Origin: Lachnoclostridium sp. UBA7482
GTDB lineage: Bacteria; Bacillota; Clostridia; Lachnospirales; Lachnospiraceae
Direction of reading: 5' to 3'
DNA: 10,516 nt
Assembly: GCA_002479645.1 (NCBI GenBank)
Contig: DLOO01000014.1
Span: 14,099 to 24,614, forward strand
In this document: piece by piece, positions 2,584-10,516 of the stretch
Layout: each line of letters opens with the position of its first letter
Numbering within the stretch: position 1 is the first letter of the stretch
Program-made: the position numbers and the translations under genes
Notes under the pieces: model-generated
The model's input: only the letters and a program-made list of their open reading frames with translations
The model's database searches: none
Told to the model about the DNA's origin: nothing

Positions 2584-2815
2584 CTACTTGCCGCAGATAC
2601 CCCGGTCGAATTCCGGATTGAGAATGTAGTAATTCTTGTCGTCAAGGCGTTCCTTTACGATTTCCAGAGCTTCGCCAAATCGCTGGTAGTGAACGATTTC
2701 ACGCTCGCGGAGGAATTTAATCGGTTCTTCGATGTCTGCATGGTTGCGGACGATGCGAAGGATATTGTCGTAAGTAGTGCGTGCCTTTTGCTCTGCTGCA
2801 ATTTTGTAAGTGCAA
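2584..2815 (-). pseudogene. cotJC: 3' fragment of a cotJC-like spore coat / manganese-catalase family gene, cut by the element
   Basis: Reading leftward, the fragment encodes about 75 residues ending at TAG (2584-2586). They begin around IAAEQKARTTYDNI, run through IKFLREREIVHYQRFGEA, and finish in NPEFDRGICGK. The R-E-R-E-x-V-H-x-Q-R-F motif is the last metal-binding helix of CotJC and other ferritin-like manganese catalases. A complete CotJC is roughly 190-200 residues, so only the C-terminal third is here. Rightward of about 2815 the same frame stays open to 2862 but no longer resembles CotJC. The break falls right beside a serine recombinase gene, which is best explained by site-specific integration into cotJC. 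The 5' part is not in the window. A shorter paralogue or a non-spore Mn catalase is an alternative. The right boundary is approximate. Confidence 0.75.
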
Positions 2816-2862
2816 CAATCAGAGCAACGCCGTAGCCGAAAGAATTTTCGACGGTATGATTA
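2795..2862. other. Probable element/chromosome junction (attL or attR)
   Basis: CotJC similarity ends within about 2795-2825, and the stop codon of the recombinase is at 2860-2862. Large serine integrases commonly sit beside their attachment site, so the crossover probably lies in this interval. The core cannot be defined without the other end of the element or an uninterrupted relative. Confidence 0.5.
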
Positions 2863-4413
2863 AAAATTCCAGTGAATTTCAATGGGAACATCCCTCGTTC
2901 CCGGGATTCGCTTGCCCACCACAATGTGGTCGATAAGGATTTCAACGATTTCACGGCTCAGGTGTTCAAGATGGGTGTATCTCTTAATCAGTTCACGGCG
3001 GTTGCCGCCGACTTCCATCTTTACCTCGATTTCTTCCATCTGTTTCTTTCCGTCGGCAATCAGACGCTCCAGGCGGTCGCGGTCAGTGATAAAATCCTTT
3101 GACATTTCGGTATAGTCAGAGACGTTAATCAGTCCCTTGACCTTATCCATATACAGCTCCCGAATTCCTTTGGAAAGCTCGGCAACGCGCTTTTCATAAG
3201 TTGCTATGTTGGCAAGAATACCATCCTTCTGCGCTTTCAGATTGCCGCAGAACTCAATATTTCTCTCCAATTCGTCCTTGTCGAGGTATTTCGATGACAA
3301 TCGGTTTAGTTCGTTAAGCACAAGCTGCTCCAGTTTGTCAATCGAGATAAAGGAGCCGATGCAGGCATCCTTTGCCACATGGCGGTTGGAGCATTGCAAA
3401 TAATGCCTGCCACGATTTTTGGAGGAGCGCATCACATATCCGCAGCCCATGCAACGGGCTTTCCTTGCAAACAGACCGATGGTGCCCACGTCAAAGGGCT
3501 TCGCCCTTTCCTGTACCATCTTTTGCACCCTGTCCCACAGCGCGCGGTCAATGATGGGGGCGTGTGTTCCCTCCACAACATACCATTCGCTTTTCGGGCG
3601 TGGTTTGTTCTGCTTGGTTTTGTAGGAGATACTGCCGTACTTGCCCTGCACCATATTGCCGATGTAGAGCTCGTTTGTCAGCATATCGGAAATGGCAAAG
3701 TATTTCCAAAGTGTGCTGTTCTTGGCGGCAGGCTGCCTGTAGCGCAGACCGTGCAGGCGTTTGTATTCGGTTGGATTGGGGATACCCCTGTCATTGAGCA
3801 AACGGGCGATTGCGGTTTTTCCGTAGCCCTGTGAGAATCGTGTAAAGACCTCCCGTACAACGGCGGCGGCTTCTTCGTCGATAATCAGATGTCCCTTTTG
3901 GTCGGGATCTTTTTTGTAGCCATAGAGGGCAAATGCGCCGATGTGAAATCCGTTTTGCCGTCGGCTGGTGAGAACGCTGCGGATGTTATCGGACATATCC
4001 TCCAAATACCATTCATTCACAAGCCCGTTGATCTGACGGGATTTTTTATTTCCCTTGTTGGCGGTGTCCGCATTATCAACGATGCTGATAAAGCGGATTC
4101 CCCATATGGGGAACAGACCGTGAATATACTTTTCCACCAGCTCCAGCTCGCGGGTAAAACGGGATTGGGTCTTGCAGAGGACAATATCGAATTTGTGCGC
4201 TTCCGCGTCTTTCAGCAGGCGGTTGAACTCCGGTCGGCGTCTGTTGGCGCCGGTATAGTCGTCATCGCTGTATATGTTATACAGCTCCCAACCCTGTTCC
4301 ATGGCGTACCCGACCAACATCGCCTTCTGATTTTGAATGCTGCCTGAATCATCGGTTTCAAATTGCTTGTTCCGGTCTTCTTCGGATAAGCGGCAATAAA
4401 TAGCTACCTTCAT
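2860..4413 (-). CDS. Large serine recombinase (site-specific integrase/excisionase of the element)
   Basis: This 517-residue protein cuts and rejoins DNA through a covalent phosphoserine link to integrate or excise a mobile element. The resolvase catalytic domain covers residues 1-150 and starts MKVAIYCRLSEEDR with the nucleophile Ser10; the arginines after SRFTRELELVE and the helix ending in RQNGFHIG follow. A recombinase DNA-binding domain covers about 165-285, then a zinc ribbon near 310-360 (C-x2-C in ARCMGCGY and Cys in LQCSNRH), then a coiled coil from roughly 370 to 460, as in phiC31-type integrases. I chose the ATG at 4413 because MKVAIYCR matches the family start; an in-frame ATG at 4494 would add 27 residues unlike any recombinase. 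A GGGGA ribosome site lies 9 bases upstream. The gene points toward the cotJC fragment, about 45 bases away. Confidence 0.93.
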   Translation of the reverse strand: MKVAIYCRLSEEDRNKQFETDDSGSIQNQKAMLVGYAMEQGWELYNIYSDDDYTGANRRRPEFNRLLKDAEAHKFDIVLCKTQSRFTRELELVEKYIHGLFPIWGIRFISIVDNADTANKGNKKSRQINGLVNEWYLEDMSDNIRSVLTSRRQNGFHIGAFALYGYKKDPDQKGHLIIDEEAAAVVREVFTRFSQGYGKTAIARLLNDRGIPNPTEYKRLHGLRYRQPAAKNSTLWKYFAISDMLTNELYIGNMVQGKYGSISYKTKQNKPRPKSEWYVVEGTHAPIIDRALWDRVQKMVQERAKPFDVGTIGLFARKARCMGCGYVMRSSKNRGRHYLQCSNRHVAKDACIGSFISIDKLEQLVLNELNRLSSKYLDKDELERNIEFCGNLKAQKDGILANIATYEKRVAELSKGIRELYMDKVKGLINVSDYTEMSKDFITDRDRLERLIADGKKQMEEIEVKMEVGGNRRELIKRYTHLEHLSREIVEILIDHIVVGKRIPGTRDVPIEIHWNF

Positions 4414-4455
4414 ATTTCCATGTCCCCAGAGACAGAACAAGCTGTTTTTGTATGC

Positions 4456-4464
4456 ATTGTACCA
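4456..4464 (-). promoter_or_regulatory. Possible extended -10 promoter of the recombinase gene
   Basis: On the minus strand TGG precedes TACAAT (4461 down to 4456), an extended -10 element about 45 bases before the chosen start. No good -35 box is visible. The element lies at the edge of an imperfect palindrome (ACCAT at 4461-4465 and ATGGT at 4483-4487), which could be an operator. Weak support. Confidence 0.35.
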
Positions 4465-4640
4465 TATGAATACGCTATAATCATGGTTTTTCACAGAAGT
4501 TTACGCTTTTGCTTTTCTCTAAAGTATTGATAAGCTCAATCCACTTTTTTGTGAATTCGCTTTTTGAAGTCGTGTTTTCGCCGCTCTTGAAAACACTCCT
4601 GCAAACGGTCGCAGATGCTTCGTTTCCTTGCATAATCTAT

Positions 4641-4720
4641 CCCTTTTCAGTTACTACTACACTATATGAACAGCGGCAAGTCCGCTATTCCGGGAGTGCG
4701 TAGCCGTAAGATGAAAAGGG
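4641..4720. repeat. 80-base extended imperfect palindrome (stem-loop), possible structured RNA
   Basis: Outer arms CCCTTTTCA (4641-4649) and TGAAAAGGG (4712-4720) pair perfectly. Moving inward, TTAC (4651-4654) pairs with GTAA (4706-4709), CTAC (4657-4660) with GTAG (4700-4703), ACT (4661-4663) with AGT (4695-4697), and AGCGG (4672-4676) with CCGCT (4682-4686) around a 5-base loop. Such nested pairing over 80 bases is unlikely in drifted sequence, but no RNA family is recognised. Confidence 0.5.
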
Positions 4721-4827
4721 GGATTTGATTTGAAAAGTAAAAACATTCGCCGGGGTACTTCCCGTTTTTCCCTGTATTCTTTCACAATCCTCACTGCAAT
4801 CCCGGCTGCTACTTCAAATCAATCCCC
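4719..4827. repeat. Inverted repeat of 15-16 bases bounding a 109-base segment
   Basis: GGGGATTTGATTTGAA (4719-4734) is the reverse complement of TTCAAATCAATCCCC (4813-4827) apart from one extra T. Its left arm shares the G-run used by the neighbouring stem-loop, so the two folds would compete. It could be a small terminal-inverted-repeat element or part of a switching RNA. Confidence 0.45.
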
Positions 4828-4991
4828 GAATAATAGACGAATTGCAATGCCCTAAATATGAAATATAACTTTTTTCAGGGCATTTCGGGCACTTGGTAGC
4901 ACTTTCGTCTGGAAATCACTCACTCTTTGAGCCTCTTGTCTCCACTGTTTTCATGTACTCCGAAAATGACTGTGGGATGGAATGTAGTCGT

Positions 4992-5032
4992 AAAAAGACT
5001 CCCCGAACAAGCCGCTGTTCGAGGAGATTTTT
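4992..5032. terminator. Bidirectional Rho-independent terminator
   Basis: CTCCCCGAAC (4999-5008) pairs with GTTCGAGGAG (5017-5026) with a single mismatch around an 8-base loop. Read on the minus strand the mismatch becomes a G-U pair. An A5 run (4992-4996) and a T5 run (5028-5032) flank it, giving a U-tract in both directions. It insulates the recombinase side from the methyltransferase unit. Confidence 0.65.
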
Positions 5033-5233
5033 CTATCTGTATGGTAACTCTGAAACGGAAAAATGTCAAGGCGTTTTCCACCGTCAGAATTTGAGCCGCA
5101 GTAGACAAAGAATAAAAACCTGCCGCATGATAAACTCACCGTATTTTTTATTGCAAAAAAGTGGTATTTTCACTGGACTTGTTTGGTAGCTAGTGGTAAT
5201 GTGTGTGATTGCAGGAGAGGAGTTGAAAGTCGT

Positions 5234-5263
5234 AGATAATAGCAGATTATAGCTGATAACAGC
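5234..5263 (+). repeat. Three tandem 10-bp direct repeats upstream of the HTH-methyltransferase promoter (putative operator)
   Basis: AGATAATAGC (5234-5243), AGATTATAGC (5244-5253) and TGATAACAGC (5254-5263) abut without gaps, giving the consensus WGATWAYAGC. The 10-bp period equals about one helical turn, so a bound protein would sit on one face of the DNA. They end 20 bases before the -35 box. The neighbouring HTH protein is the natural candidate binder, but this is inferred from position only. Confidence 0.55.
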
Positions 5264-5283
5264 AAAAAATGATCCTGCGCCGA

Positions 5284-5312
5284 TTGACATTCGACATAAA
5301 TTGCGGTATAAT
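5284..5312 (+). promoter_or_regulatory. Consensus sigma-A promoter of the HTH-methyltransferase operon
   Basis: TTGACA (5284-5289) and TATAAT (5307-5312) match the consensus at all 12 positions with the ideal 17-base spacer. The expected start of transcription, near 5319, leaves only about 14 bases before the ATG at 5333. So strong a promoter in front of a methyltransferase suggests that it is normally held back by a repressor. Confidence 0.85.
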
Positions 5313-5332
5313 AAAATTTCGTGGGGGATGTG

Positions 5333-5548
5333 ATGAATAAGGCAGAAAAATGGGTATCCATGCCGGAAATATGCGATCATCTTGGATTTGGAAAAGATAC
5401 CGTAAAAAAGTCAATTAAAGAGCAAGGACGTCCCGCTTATAAACCGGATAATAAAATATGGAAATTTAAAATAAGCACAGTTGACAAATGGGTGAAAACT
5501 AAACGAATTGGCGTAGGCAAAGCGACAGGAGATGATAAAGATGTATAA
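5333..5548 (+). CDS. Small helix-turn-helix DNA-binding protein (excisionase/MerR-like), probable operon regulator
   Basis: This 71-residue protein is essentially one winged helix-turn-helix domain. The stretch EKWVSMPEICDHLGFG is followed by KDTVKKSIKEQGRPAYKPDN and ends in WKFKISTVDKWVKTK, the layout of HTH_17/excisionase-type domains. The ATG at 5333 is preceded by GGGGG (5323-5327); GTG codons at 5321 and 5330 are possible but worse spaced. Its last 8 bases overlap the start of the methyltransferase gene, so the two are translationally linked. By position it may act like the controller protein of restriction-modification systems, binding the tandem repeats upstream. It could instead be the directionality factor (Xis) of the element, but that is less likely given the overlap with the methyltransferase gene. 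Confidence 0.75.
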   Translation: MNKAEKWVSMPEICDHLGFGKDTVKKSIKEQGRPAYKPDNKIWKFKISTVDKWVKTKRIGVGKATGDDKDV

Positions 5549-7136
5549 AACCATTGACTTGTTTGCTGGCGCAGGCGGTCTGAGCCTTGGATTCAAACAA
5601 ACAGGACGGTTTGAATTAGTTGCAGCGGCAGAAATCAATCCTAATGCGCAAGCAACATATAAAGCAAACATCCCTACTGATTTCGATAACTTTAAATTCA
5701 TTGATAATGTAATAGGTTGCGATTTCAGGGCTTTGAGCGATGAATTCGGGGGTATAGAAATTGTAATCGGAGGTCCCCCGTGCCAGGGGTTCTCAAATGC
5801 AAACAGGCAAAAAAACCAACTTATTAATATGAATAATGCGCTTGTTAAGGAGTATTTTAGAGCGATAAAAGAGATCCGCCCAATCGCATTTGTTATGGAA
5901 AATGTGAGTATGCTTGAATCTGATACACATCGATTTTACGATTCGCACAATGATCACGATGAAATAGAAACATTACGAACCGAAGGATATGCGATACCCA
6001 CAAGAAACGACGATATATTTATATCAAAGGACAATTTTGAGGGTTTTGATATGCTCGACATTGCTATGCATATAGAAACAGTTGAAGCAATGATTTTGCC
6101 CAATGAACTCTATGTGCTTATTCGTGTGCTAAATAAGAATAAAAACAATAAAAAAAGACTTCCAAATTTTCTGAAAAAAAACACAAATCAATTGATAAAG
6201 CAAATTGATAAGTATATGGAAAATGCTGATAGTCAGGATGTACACAAAATTCAAATTTGTGAAATGCTTGATGCAATAAAGGGTGTTTTGTCTGAAGAAG
6301 CGGTAAAGGAGTGTACGGAGTTATCCTCACTGGTGGAATTACAAAAAAATCTAATTTCAATAAAAGAGATCTATCAAAACAGATTAATAGGTACTTATCA
6401 AAAAGATGCAGATGACAATGTAGTGTTTGCAACCAAGTCATATTCTGTAATTGATTATATAAATGCAATATTGGGTAATCAATATACACAAAAAGGTGCT
6501 ACCCTTAACGCAGAATGGTTTGGCGTCCCACAAGAGCGCCGTCGTCACATAGTTGTAGGATTGAGAAAAGATAACGAAAAGGAAATCGAAATATCATTCC
6601 CAACGGAAAGTGTATGTGATAAGCATTACACGGTAGCTGATGCTATAATGGATTTAGCCGAATATCCGGTTAGCCTTGAAAAGACATGCAATGATATCCT
6701 CTACACTGACGATCAACTATCTGAATATGCTCGTGAAATGAGGCGCGATAGTACAACGGTTAAGAATCATATTGCGACCAAAACAACGGAAACTGCAATG
6801 GAACGATTTAAGGCAATTGAGCAGGGAAAGAATTTTCATAGTCTTGATGCCGAACTGAAAACCACATATTCTGATCCGACACGAACACAAAATACTATAT
6901 ATCTTAGACTTAATCCTAATGAGCCGAGCGGAACCGTTGTTAATGTGCGAAAGTCAATGTGGATACATCCTACGTTGGATCGGGCGGTTACCGTAAGAGA
7001 GGCAGCAAGATTACAATCCTTCCCTGATAAATTTAAATTTGTTGGAACTAAAGATTCACAATATCAGCAGGTAGGCAATGCTGTTCCGCCAAAACTTGCA
7101 CGGGGTATAGCAAACATAATCTTAGATTTAATATAA
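5541..7136 (+). CDS. DNA (cytosine-5-)-methyltransferase with a large insertion between motifs VI and VIII
   Basis: This 531-residue protein transfers a methyl group from S-adenosylmethionine to C5 of cytosine in a specific DNA sequence. Motif I is DLFAGAGG (residues 6-13), motif IV GGPPCQGFS holds the catalytic Cys81, motif VI ENV contains Glu120, motif VIII is QERRRH (332-337), and motifs IX and X are REAARLQSFPD (487-497) and QVGNAVPP (510-517). The target-recognition region should lie at about 345-455. Between ENV and motif VIII are about 180 extra, mostly helical, Lys/Asn-rich residues, unlike compact family members. I chose the ATG at 5541 because AGGAG lies 9 bases upstream; ATG at 5532 sits on top of that site. 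It overlaps the HTH gene and is followed by a terminator. It probably protects self DNA in the module. No Vsr-like repair gene is adjacent. Confidence 0.95.
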   Translation: MYKTIDLFAGAGGLSLGFKQTGRFELVAAAEINPNAQATYKANIPTDFDNFKFIDNVIGCDFRALSDEFGGIEIVIGGPPCQGFSNANRQKNQLINMNNALVKEYFRAIKEIRPIAFVMENVSMLESDTHRFYDSHNDHDEIETLRTEGYAIPTRNDDIFISKDNFEGFDMLDIAMHIETVEAMILPNELYVLIRVLNKNKNNKKRLPNFLKKNTNQLIKQIDKYMENADSQDVHKIQICEMLDAIKGVLSEEAVKECTELSSLVELQKNLISIKEIYQNRLIGTYQKDADDNVVFATKSYSVIDYINAILGNQYTQKGATLNAEWFGVPQERRRHIVVGLRKDNEKEIEISFPTESVCDKHYTVADAIMDLAEYPVSLEKTCNDILYTDDQLSEYAREMRRDSTTVKNHIATKTTETAMERFKAIEQGKNFHSLDAELKTTYSDPTRTQNTIYLRLNPNEPSGTVVNVRKSMWIHPTLDRAVTVREAARLQSFPDKFKFVGTKDSQYQQVGNAVPPKLARGIANIILDLI

Positions 7137-7139
7137 TTA

Positions 7140-7180
7140 AAAATACCGCAAATTATTTTTGAAATAATTTGCGGTATTTT
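7140..7180. terminator. Strong perfect-stem terminator after the methyltransferase gene
   Basis: Bases 7140-7158 pair perfectly with 7162-7180 (19 bp) around the 3-base loop TTG. The stem carries the GC core ACCGC/GCGGT and ends in a T-run. It starts 3 bases after the methyltransferase stop codon and separates that unit from the GHKL operon. Confidence 0.85.
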
Positions 7181-7255
7181 ACATCTGCAATCATCGAACA
7201 ATGAGATTTAATTGCTTAAAAATGAAATTATTTGAAAAAAATTCTGAAAATAATA

Positions 7256-7284
7256 TTGACGCGAGCATCTCTTGGCTGTATAAT
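7256..7284 (+). promoter_or_regulatory. Near-consensus sigma-A promoter of the GHKL operon
   Basis: TTGACG (7256-7261) and TATAAT (7279-7284) match 11 of 12 consensus positions with a 17-base spacer. Transcription should start near 7291, giving a leader of about 25 bases that contains GGAGGG. The WGATWAYAGC repeats of the first promoter are not seen here. Confidence 0.8.
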
Positions 7285-7315
7285 AAAGTCGAAATAAATC
7301 GGAGGGATGAAAAAT

Positions 7316-7549
7316 ATGCCAAATACAGAAACTAAAAGAGATAGATTTGTTCGTATTGCTGAGGCACGCACAAATAAAATTATTTCAATGATTCAGTTGC
7401 TTGGAAATTGTGCCAACCCCGGAAGTTACGAATATACAGAAAAAGATGTTGCGGATATCTTTTGTGCTATCGAAAAAGAATTAAAAATAGCAAAAATCAA
7501 GTTTAATCCTACAGAGGATAAGACTACCAAATTTAAGCTTGGCCGATAA
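7316..7549 (+). CDS. Small helical protein of unknown function, first gene of the GHKL operon
   Basis: This 77-residue, charged, mostly helical protein opens with a basic stretch (TKRDRFVRIAEARTNKII), continues with an IQLLGNCANPGSYEYTEKDV segment, and ends in a helix IFCAIEKELKIAKIKF. No signal peptide or membrane segment is seen. The pattern resembles small conserved proteins found on clostridial mobile elements and beside defence genes, but no function is established that I can name. I chose the ATG at 7316 because GGAGGG (7301-7306) lies 9 bases upstream; the in-frame ATG at 7307 directly abuts that site. The gene ends 12 bases before the ATPase, whose ribosome site overlaps its stop codon, so the two are probably coupled and may act together. 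Confidence 0.75.
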   Translation: MPNTETKRDRFVRIAEARTNKIISMIQLLGNCANPGSYEYTEKDVADIFCAIEKELKIAKIKFNPTEDKTTKFKLGR

Positions 7550-7561
7550 GGAGGCAAATGT

Positions 7562-9643
7562 ATGGGAAGCTGGAATGAAAAATTATCATGGTGTTTTAGC
7601 CCGTTAGGATCTGGCCCTAAAGTCGGTGTTAACGATGCGGGTATTGGTATTTTTAAAAAACGACCGTACATAAGTTTAGCAAAAGAAATATTGCAAAATG
7701 TAATTGATGCCAAGGATCATACCATTGATGTACCTGCTCAAGCTTGCTTCGAAATAATAAATATTGAGCGCAAAGATATTCCTGATGGAGAACGGCTTTC
7801 GCAAGTGATAAAAAGTTGTTATGATTATTACCATGATGGCGATGACGGAATAAAAATGGGATTTATCAAAGATGCAGCCAAAGAATTTTTAGATGGCACT
7901 GCCCATGTTCCCGTACTTAAAATTAGTGACTATAACACTCTTGGTCTCACCGGAGCAAAAGAGGAAAAAGGTTCAAACTGGACTGGTCTTATCCGAGAAG
8001 TTGGAGCTACAAACAAAGGAAATGGAAAAAGCGGCTCTTTTGGCGTTGGTAAATTTGCACCATTTAATTTTTCTTCTATTAGAACAATTATTTACTCAAC
8101 AGCGAATAAAGACGGTGACACTGCTCTTCAAGGAAAGACCATATTAACTGCTTTTCGTGATGTTGATGGTAAAGTCAAACAAAATGTTGGATTGTTTGGA
8201 TTTTTAGAGGATGATGACAGCAAGGCTGTATATGACTTTAATGATGTACCCCAAATATATAGACGCGATAAAAACAAAATTGGAACCGATTTGTTTGTGT
8301 TAGGGGTAAAAAAAGATCAGGACTGGATGGATCAAATTGCTTTATGCGTCTTGGACTATTTCTTTTATACAATTTATCAAAATGATTTGGAAGTCATCAT
8401 TAAAGATGTCAATAAGGAAATAATCATTAACAAGAAAAATTTGCCTGAGCTCATGGCAAAATATTCGGCTTATTGCGAAGAAAACGATATAAACTTTGAT
8501 GCCCCTATCTTTTGGGAGGTATTGAACGATACATCTGGAAAAACCAAAAAGTTTACAGCAACTATCCGCAATAAAGGAGAGGTTGAACTTTACTTGTGCG
8601 TCGATTCAGATTTCTATGATAAAAGAATTTTGCAAATGCGTAAAGCAGGTATGAAAATTCAAGAGGATACTGCCTTTAGAATTGGAGCCTATTTTCATGG
8701 AATATTTATAGCAACAGGTAAAGGTAGCAAATCTGACAATCCGGAAGATAATATCAACAGCTTTTTGCGCAAGTGTGAAAATCAGGCTCACGATACTTGG
8801 AGTGAAAGCGAATATGACGGAAATCAAGAAGAAGCAAAAAAAACGCTGAAAGAAATTCATTCTTGGATACTGGAGAAAGTAAAAAGCGTTATGCCCAAAG
8901 AGGAAGCGGCTGAGGTTGATGCCTATGGGTTAAGCGATTTATTACCTAACCAATTTGGCGATTCTGAAGAGGATATGCAAGAAATAGCATATGCAAGTTT
9001 TGAGCCGTTGCCGCTTGAAGTCGCCGCTGTAAAGGTCAAAAAAGGCACAAGAAGCATTTCTGATATTAGCGTTTCCATTGACGATAAAAAGCAGCAACCC
9101 GGATCAGTAATTATTCCTGATCCGGATGGTAATGAAATAATAAATACTGGAAAAGTGAAAGAAGAACCACCGATTCCGCCTACTCCTGTGCCGCCGATTC
9201 CGGTGCCGCCGATTCCGGTTCCGCCGATTCCGGTTCCGCCAGTTCCTGTTCCGCCTGAACCTGAGCCTAACCCTGAAGGACCAGAGCAAATTTCAGGGTC
9301 GACTGACAAGACCAATAAAACGAATAGCGGTAAAACCGCACTACATAATGTTCCGTTATCCAATATTAAAACTCCGTTCAATTCGAAGGAAGAAACATTT
9401 ATTGTTTCTTTTGTGCCGCAAAGGAGTTGTGAGGATGTATTTATTAGGCTTAGGATAGGCTCTGATGATGAAGATAAGAGGAACGCAGAAATAAGGAATG
9501 CCATCTACGAAGGTCGCCAACTGGAGCTGTATAAAGAATTTATAAGATTCGGTTGCTTTGAAAAAGGCAAAAAGATTATTATTCGTGTTGAATTGAAAAA
9601 TGCGAAGAGATGTCCCTTGGAGGTGAGTGCATATGTTAAATAG
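7562..9643 (+). CDS. GHKL (MutL/MORC/Hsp90-fold) ATPase with a proline-rich linker; probable defence component
   Basis: This 693-residue cytosolic protein carries an N-terminal Bergerat-fold ATP site. The N-box is AKEILQNVIDAKD (Glu42, Asn46, Asp49), the G1-like box is SDYNTLGLTG (Asp123), and the G2 glycine loop is GKSGSFGVGKFAPF (Gly155-Gly163). A second conserved segment around GTDLFVLG (near residue 240) fits the adjoining transducer domain. Residues of about 535-570 form a linker of repeated P-I-P-V-P units leading to a compact C-terminal domain of about 100 residues that resembles nothing I know. GHKL ATPases of MutL/MORC type are known in predicted restriction-modification operons with cytosine methyltransferases, where ATP-driven dimer clamping is thought to act on DNA; that role here is inferred. 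The start ATG has AAGGAGG 7 bases upstream. Its end overlaps the next start by 11 bases. Confidence 0.85.
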   Translation: MGSWNEKLSWCFSPLGSGPKVGVNDAGIGIFKKRPYISLAKEILQNVIDAKDHTIDVPAQACFEIINIERKDIPDGERLSQVIKSCYDYYHDGDDGIKMGFIKDAAKEFLDGTAHVPVLKISDYNTLGLTGAKEEKGSNWTGLIREVGATNKGNGKSGSFGVGKFAPFNFSSIRTIIYSTANKDGDTALQGKTILTAFRDVDGKVKQNVGLFGFLEDDDSKAVYDFNDVPQIYRRDKNKIGTDLFVLGVKKDQDWMDQIALCVLDYFFYTIYQNDLEVIIKDVNKEIIINKKNLPELMAKYSAYCEENDINFDAPIFWEVLNDTSGKTKKFTATIRNKGEVELYLCVDSDFYDKRILQMRKAGMKIQEDTAFRIGAYFHGIFIATGKGSKSDNPEDNINSFLRKCENQAHDTWSESEYDGNQEEAKKTLKEIHSWILEKVKSVMPKEEAAEVDAYGLSDLLPNQFGDSEEDMQEIAYASFEPLPLEVAAVKVKKGTRSISDISVSIDDKKQQPGSVIIPDPDGNEIINTGKVKEEPPIPPTPVPPIPVPPIPVPPIPVPPVPVPPEPEPNPEGPEQISGSTDKTNKTNSGKTALHNVPLSNIKTPFNSKEETFIVSFVPQRSCEDVFIRLRIGSDDEDKRNAEIRNAIYEGRQLELYKEFIRFGCFEKGKKIIIRVELKNAKRCPLEVSAYVK
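9194..9253 (+). repeat. Four 15-bp tandem repeats encoding P-I-P-V-P in the ATPase linker
   Basis: Units at 9194-9208, 9209-9223 and 9224-9238 are identical except for one third-position change. The fourth (9239-9253, encoding P-V-P-V-P) is diverged, and a fifth (9254-9268) encodes P-E-P-E-P. Because 15 is a multiple of 3, copy-number change by slippage would lengthen or shorten the linker without breaking the frame. Confidence 0.85.
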
Positions 9644-9764
9644 TACAATAAACTATCCATATCCTGTGTTGAGAACTAATCCCGAAGATTATGATAAATC
9701 TATATTTTATGCCAATGTAACAGTTGATCCGACAACCGATGGATGTTACCCCTGTTATTGTTGA
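9633..9764 (+). pseudogene. N-terminal fragment (43 codons) of a broken third operon gene
   Basis: A real translation start is present: GGAGG (9619-9623) lies 9 bases before the ATG, which overlaps the end of the ATPase gene by 11 bases. The frame begins MLNSTINYPYPVLRTNPEDYD, continues with a strand-like stretch (SIFYANVTVDPTTD), and stops at TGA (9762-9764) after a Cys/Tyr-rich tail (GCYPCYC) that looks like out-of-frame reading. The opening resembles the N terminus of a much longer protein with an INYPYPVLR-type start, so an internal deletion with a frame change is the simplest explanation. A genuine 43-residue peptide gene cannot be excluded. Confidence 0.5.
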
Positions 9765-9987
9765 AGCATTAACATACATATATCAAGATGAGTGCAAAAA
9801 TGGGGATAACTCGCTTTCGGAATATGCGTGGTATAAGACATTGAAGTTTTTAACGGGAAAAATTGCCAAAAACGATTCTGCAAAGTATAAAAAATTATTA
9901 GGTGATCCGGTTAAACTTGCACAACTATTATTAAATAATAATGCGTCAACATCACTCGAATTGCTTGGCAGTTCAAGCAAGCAATAA
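9739..9987 (+). pseudogene. C-terminal fragment of the broken third operon gene (82 codons)
   Basis: This frame opens at 9721, just after a stop at 9718-9720, and overlaps the preceding fragment in another frame. The first ATG is at 9739 (MDVTPVIVEALTYIYQDE) and has no ribosome site. The rest is helical (YAWYKTLKFLTGKIAKN, VKLAQLLLNNN) and ends LLGSSSKQ at 9985-9987. It looks like the C-terminal end of a larger protein, joined to the N-terminal fragment at 9633 by a deletion that also shifted the frame. If it is translated today, it would need coupling to the upstream fragment, whose stop lies 25 bases inside it. It may also be annotated as a stand-alone hypothetical protein. Confidence 0.55.
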
Positions 9988-10004
9988 GGAAGGAGAGAGA
10001 AGAT

Positions 10005-10516
10005 ATGTTGTTGAATTTCATGAAAAACGATGCTCTTTCTCTGCTTATGTCTGATATACCCAATAATATTGAACGCTATGATTTAAAGGATAAGTGGATT
10101 GACGAATATTTTGATTCAAAAGGGATAGGTAACTATTGCTTTAATTCCATGATAAGTGTTCCAGATGTTGAGTTAACTCTAGGTGATTCCAAAACAGATT
10201 TTAAGAATGCTGTTAAGATTTATGATTCATTCCGAGAGTTCTTAAATCCCGTACAAGCTAGTGACCTTAGACTTTGGGCATATTTGGCGCATAACAATTA
10301 TTGGGACTACATGAGAGAAAGATGGGCTATAGATATTCCATCAGAGGAAGATGATGACGGTGCTGAATCAAATAAGTTAGCTGCAAGAATAGGTTCGCGA
10401 TATTTCTTTAAAGCTTCTAAAGGTAAAGCGTTTGTTCGTCAAGGCATCGCACGACTTTATTGGAGTGCTTATTTGACTTATGATGATAACAATCCAAATA
10501 ACCCTTATGAATATAC
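10005..10516 (+). CDS. DUF6339-like protein of the defence operon, 3'-truncated by window edge
   Basis: An open frame runs from the ATG at 10005 to the end of the window (170 codons) with no stop. AGGAGAG (9991-9997) gives a well-spaced ribosome site, and the gene begins 17 bases after the preceding fragment, in the same operon. The first 60 residues are acidic and helical (MKNDALSLLMSDIPNNIERYD). The middle holds LRLWAYLAHNNYWDYMRERW, and further on are RIGSRYFFKASKGKAFVRQG and IARLYWSAYLTYDDNNPNNPYEY. The order of a WAYLAH-x-W-x-YMRERW block, an RYFF block and an ARLYW block is what I associate with DUF6339, a family of unknown function seen next to defence genes. Family assignment is from memory. 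The gene being real is well supported. Confidence 0.7.
   Translation, partial: MLLNFMKNDALSLLMSDIPNNIERYDLKDKWIDEYFDSKGIGNYCFNSMISVPDVELTLGDSKTDFKNAVKIYDSFREFLNPVQASDLRLWAYLAHNNYWDYMRERWAIDIPSEEDDDGAESNKLAARIGSRYFFKASKGKAFVRQGIARLYWSAYLTYDDNNPNNPYEY

Follow-up and report, generated by a model that had tools for sequence, protein, structure and literature searches.

The locus described here raises the question whether a C5-cytosine DNA methyltransferase, a small protein and three further genes together form a restriction-modification (R-M) type defence system and which of these parts would act as its effector. It is located in Lachnoclostridium sp. UBA7482 on a stretch of 10,516 nucleotides (hereafter the window), which comprises positions 14099-24614 of contig DLOO01000014.1 (24,614 bases) in a draft genome of 87 contigs and 80% completeness. 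Because the last base of the window is also the last base of the contig, the last of these genes, encoding a DUF6339 protein, is cut and genes further downstream can not be read. The reading we lean towards is that an integrated mobile element carries an R-M-type defence locus, whose effector core is PDC-M33, a candidate system of PADLOC-DB. The genes on which this reading is built are:

5532 to 7136, plus strand: C5-cytosine DNA methyltransferase, 534 residues (PF00145, 1.1e-60)
7307 to 7549, plus strand: conserved small protein linked to C5 methyltransferases, 77-80 residues (80 from the first ATG)
7562 to 9643, plus strand: PDC-M33A (A), putative GHKL-like ATPase with the paraMORC2 ExxxH signature, 693 residues (PDLC04582, 1.2e-132, residues 9-691; motif residues)
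9633 to 9764, plus strand: 5' piece of PDC-M33B (B) (PDLC04583, 1.6e-5; residues 1-37 match, then the frame is lost)
9721 to 9987, plus strand: 3' piece of B in another frame (PDLC04583, 8.5e-6; residues 209-289 match)
10005 to 10516, plus strand: PDC-M33C (C), DUF6339 protein, cut by the contig end (PF19866, 1.1e-31; PDLC04586, 1.4e-42, residues 1-169)

All three families of PDC-M33 are present in the window in the order A-B-C, with matches to A and C but none to an intact B. Unlike PDC-M33 as modelled, B is broken and C is cut, and the small protein has no PADLOC model. The PDC entries of PADLOC are described as unpublished and mostly unvalidated candidates found by "guilt by embedding" (PMC12988326, PMC11811056). 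No paper in the literature searched, which leaves out most subscription papers, mentions "PDC-M33" or "DUF6339". The initial annotation had not matched this exact gene set to a named system; the PADLOC-DB candidate covers the last three genes.

Compared to the intact B of 289 residues in locus L003, the closest relative by A (57% identity), about 171 codons are missing from B of the window. This internal deletion left two pieces in different frames and took out nearly all of the beta-rich part of the protein, as judged from the predicted L003 structure (mean predicted local distance difference test, pLDDT, of 88). The effector arm in Lachnoclostridium sp. UBA7482 is probably dead, and a possibly active solitary methyltransferase remains.

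Distribution of the genes A, B and C

The small protein and the three proteins A, B and C were searched for with Hidden Markov Models in 34 loci, including the window. All three genes in order were found in 26 loci, a number which counts L044, whose A is broken and spread over several frames. Four further loci match two families, A and B in L084 and L086 and A and C in L085 and L087; an annotated gene occupies the third slot in L085-L087, and L084 is without annotation. Incomplete are L041, the fragments L046 and L047, and the window with its B in pieces. Complete triads occur in Bacillota, Deinococcus (L010) and Arthrobacter (L083), and the haloarchaeal L085 and cyanobacterial L087, in which C is annotated as DUF6339, are among the loci with two of the three families.

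Within the family, 19 of 397 genomes have a match to A at E<=1e-3, and in 15 of the 19 the match is strong (E<1e-50). Every one of the 13 family genomes (of 397) with DUF6339 belongs to these 15, which, together with the 26 triads, shows the co-occurrence of A and DUF6339. In the phylum 9 of 398 genomes carry A, counting that of the window and one weak match, and in the genus only the window's own does (1/22).

Some rearranged or extended loci were seen as well. In L041 (8911-11109) A is fused to a C-terminal piece of C, whereas B and the remainder of C have been lost, and an AIPR gene lies upstream. On a plasmid of Halomicrobium urmianum (L085 and L088) one C5 methyltransferase lies between two A-B-DUF6339-like sets, the second of which is recognized by annotation and gene sizes only. 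Directly after C, L035 (3887-6640, minus strand) and L037 (4853-7774, minus strand) encode large proteins with sigma-70 region 4-like matches; the match in L035 is weak and accompanied, in the same protein, by a C-terminal domain of RNA polymerase alpha.

Methyltransferases and nucleases next to the triad

The methyltransferase of the window shows the legible motifs GGPPCQGFS, MENV, QERRR and QVGNAVPP. C5 methyltransferases are present in 15 of the 34 loci, and methyltransferases of other types in three (N-6 in L007, D12 in L008 and L043). For the family genomes with strong A matches, six of 15 have a C5 methyltransferase in the fetched flank (G000, G046, G068, G082, G319, G345).

Which nucleases are present varies among the loci: HNH_2 and Vsr in L004, Vsr in L005 (identified by eye from the translation), L010, L045 and L071, AlwI and Vsr in L009, AlwI in L008, a FokI/AlwI type enzyme and HNH in L037, MutH/Sau3AI in L006, Vsr, a type II enzyme and Shedu in L083, and AIPR in L086 and also in L041, where the triad is absent. 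Since no nuclease is common to the loci, none looks like a part of the core. On the Arthrobacter plasmid (L083, 9628-10773) the Shedu-annotated gene follows directly after the triad, downstream of a set of C5 methyltransferase, Vsr and type II enzyme. In L100 (379-14549) three genes for serine recombinases are surrounded by two genes each for C5 methyltransferases and Vsr and by an AlwI-like open reading frame (ORF), the latter identified by eye.

The subfamily to which the window's methyltransferase belongs was found in eight of 368 genomes, three of them with the triad and five, which are not among the A-positive genomes, with mza-like genes. Either A-B-C or an mza-like arm thus stands beside one methyltransferase subfamily. 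In the mza-like locus L097 the C5 methyltransferase is 50% identical to that of the window and nests among the triad-side enzymes (100/98, 100/99; tree of 13 rows), Vsr is 66% identical to that of L004, and a GHKL-type ATPase arm adjoins the methyltransferase, as does the putative one of the window. In contrast, A can not be aligned to the MzaB-like protein of L097, and B and C have no match to its MzaD- and MzaE-like proteins. An assignment of the window itself to mza is not supported, as MzaB, MzaC, MzaD and MzaE are absent from the PADLOC matches of its other proteins before the contig end; for the methyltransferase no Mza is among the matches listed (25 of 62 PADLOC matches).

The small protein has no match in Pfam, NCBIfam or PADLOC and one weak PHROG match of unknown function (0.0021). 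Of the 34 loci 14 encode it, and a C5 methyltransferase is present in 12 of these 14 compared to three of the 20 loci without it (Fisher p=6.6e-5, kinship ignored). In L037 it adjoins the methyltransferase, apart from A, and between L004 and L039 it is 87% identical, compared to 66% for the methyltransferase and just 26% for A. Based on these three observations the small protein and the methyltransferase seem to move together; L038 and L069, which carry it beside A with the C5 enzyme absent, speak against such a link.

Sequence motifs and predicted structures of A, B and C

In A the E-N-D box, DxxxxG and GxFGxGK of the GHKL ATP-binding site are all present. E42, D49, D123, G128, G158, G161, G163, R360, E406 and H410 are conserved in 31 of 31 A proteins and N46 and K164 in 30 of 31; in a 29-row alignment G241 is invariant and T242 almost so. 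This conservation agrees with the GHKL motif pattern. At the level of motifs only, A can be assigned as a GHKL ATPase.

ExxxH, found in A as E406-x3-H410 in all 31 proteins, is described in section 3 of Iyer et al., 2008 (PMC2292703) as the mark of paraMORC2, located towards the C-terminus of the S5 domain. The paraMORC2 ATPases of R-M operons, with which A shares the GHKL pattern and the invariant ExxxH, are according to the same study common in Gram-positives and neighbor methyltransferases, Vsr and restriction endonucleases; the triad is likewise common in Gram-positives and has such neighbors. Unlike these operons, as far as their description was considered here, the triad comprises B and C, which are not named, although the figure contains unnamed X and Z domains, and membership of A is motif-based. 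A second parallel is GHKL-Shedu (VcSduA, paraMORC3; PMC12137116), in which a GHKL ATPase serves phage defence, as proposed for A. In GHKL-Shedu a single fusion protein contains both ATPase and nuclease, whereas no nuclease was recognized in A, though L083 has the separate Shedu gene past C.

B is predicted to consist of a beta-sandwich followed by helices (pLDDT 88, predicted template modeling score, pTM, 0.58) and C of a helical domain and a small C-terminal beta domain (pLDDT 88, pTM 0.79). Fold searches with B and C returned nothing above common arrangements, profile and fold searches gave no nuclease match, and in profile comparisons with L097 neither B nor C matched its PD-(D/E)XK or its AIPR protein.

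Proposed function and alternative explanations

In the R-M-type reading the methyltransferase would mark host DNA and the helix-turn-helix (HTH) protein encoded upstream of it may control the methyltransferase, with the small protein coupling the methyltransferase to the triad. A would be a clamp ATPase of the GHKL type, which upon ATP binding closes on DNA, and B (beta-sandwich plus helices) and C (mostly helical) could be its non-enzymatic partners, by which the DNA is read or gated. If the DNA is unmarked, the closed complex would block it or recruit an exchangeable nuclease, for the subtype of the window most likely the products of the HNH and/or Vsr genes which follow C in L004 and L005.

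Several observations weigh against this reading. A nuclease is not seen within the window: as the initial annotation had noted, none was recognized before the contig end, so that of a type II R-M system the methyltransferase is present and an endonuclease is not recognized up to that point. In L003, C is not followed by HNH or Vsr, and the short flank upstream lacks a methyltransferase. In 16 of the 34 loci no methyltransferase was recognized in the fetched flank, some flanks being cut by contig ends, and C5 enzymes are common regardless (208 of 397 family genomes), hence co-occurrence at genome level tells little. The R-M-like module proposed initially is supported in part. For the ATPase, Pfam lists no ATPase domain for 29 A proteins, a PDB search with A yields no convincing match and a profile comparison did not align A with the GHKL protein found in L097. 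As B and C lack a fold assignment, a role as "sensor" or "gate" is a guess.

The main rival, which we consider possible but clearly less probable than the R-M-type reading, regards A-B-C as a self-contained, modification-independent defence with methyltransferases and nucleases as mere neighbors in defence islands. The high diversity of the neighbors agrees with it, as do loci in which the triad is complete and the fetched flank holds no C5 enzyme (e.g., L038, L040, L066, L068, L069, L070). The share of loci with a C5 methyltransferase and the small protein that goes with it do not, and the rival is weakened by the exchange of arms, the mza-like arm being in the same place by the same methyltransferase subfamily.

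A further-reaching idea, which we put forward as speculative, is that A-B-C forms an immune ATPase machine without nuclease, which is widespread among Bacteria and Archaea and acts alone, e.g., by clamping or silencing invading DNA like eukaryotic MORC. C5 methyltransferases, the small protein and the varied nucleases (AlwI/FokI, HNH, Vsr, MutH/Sau3AI, AIPR, Shedu) would then be add-ons, and in the lineage of the window the machine would have been swapped with an mza-type arm beside one methyltransferase.

It is improbable that the deletion in B is an artefact of assembly or binning and that the living genome encodes an intact system. The draft state of the genome and the end of the contig about 0.75 kilobases past the deletion are in favor of an artefact, but the reading frames on either side are clean, and decayed copies exist elsewhere in the sample (the L041 fusion, L044, L046, L047). 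Upkeep or methylation-dependent regulation of the mobile element instead of defence is very unlikely, for despite the serine recombinase and excisionase-like HTH gene nearby and relatives on plasmids (28 records), the triad repeatedly has genes for restriction endonucleases, Abi, AIPR and Shedu as neighbors, and the triad of L066 lies amid ordinary chromosomal genes, though with a transposase-like ORF also present.

The R-M-type reading makes three statements that can be tested: the triad is an effector core able to replace the mza-type arm next to one subfamily of methyltransferases, in function the small protein belongs to the methyltransferase, and the core contains no nuclease. If true, R-M-like immunity could combine a modification part that stays constant with ATPase arms that are exchanged, and a dedicated nuclease may not be needed for MORC-type ATPases to work in defence.

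Organization of the two units and acquisition of the locus

Further features of the window are:

2860 to 4494, minus strand: large serine recombinase, probable integrase of the element bearing the locus (PF00239, PF07508, PF13408; phrog_95 integrase, 1.5e-99)
5284 to 5312, plus strand: sigma-70 promoter-like site of unit 1 (12/12, spacer 17; consensus match only)
5321 to 5548, plus strand: HTH protein of 75 residues, excisionase/MAD1-like, overlapping the methyltransferase start (PF12728, 7.2e-5, under the cutoff of that profile)
7140 to 7180, no strand assigned: terminator-like 19-base-pair inverted repeat between units 1 and 2, scored as terminator on the minus strand only
7256 to 7284, plus strand: sigma-70 promoter-like site of unit 2 (11/12, spacer 17; consensus match only)
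9167 to 9280 (approximate ends), plus strand: proline-rich repeat linker within A, evident from the sequence; some relatives in the A alignment are without it (e.g., P0052, P0099)

Two adjacent units, each with its own promoter and with the gene content given by the initial annotation, were confirmed, the promoters by consensus match only. Unit 1 consists of the first promoter match, the HTH gene and the overlapping methyltransferase gene, unit 2 of the second promoter match, the small protein, the 693-residue protein, the broken gene and the cut DUF6339 gene. Positions 4500-10516 contain 19 promoter-like sites compared to 20.9 (standard deviation 4.9) in shuffled sequences, i.e., no excess, and weight is therefore given only to where the two near-perfect sites lie and how well they match. 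MADS membership is not supported for the HTH protein, as its match to MAD1 (NF047737, 5e-10) reaches 39.5 bits with a cutoff of 80; other MAD genes are not among the matches listed for the window proteins.

The GC content is 0.44-0.53 up to about 4.25 kilobases, about 0.42 at 4.25-5.25 kilobases and 0.31-0.45 past 5 kilobases. This shift, the serine recombinase and the absence from the 21 other genus genomes point to an acquisition of the locus on an integrated mobile element. Left of the locus, the recombinase abuts the end of an interrupted CotJC/Mn-catalase-like gene. This gene is in pieces in two species of the genus (window, 2587-2850, minus strand; L081 on contig C66, 5300-6866; L073 and L082 of genome G414). 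At the breaks lie recombinase-like ORFs, which apart from that of the window were named by eye, a short one near residue 30 in both species and another beside the C-terminal piece. This arrangement resembles sporulation gene-intervening elements such as skin, gin and yin.
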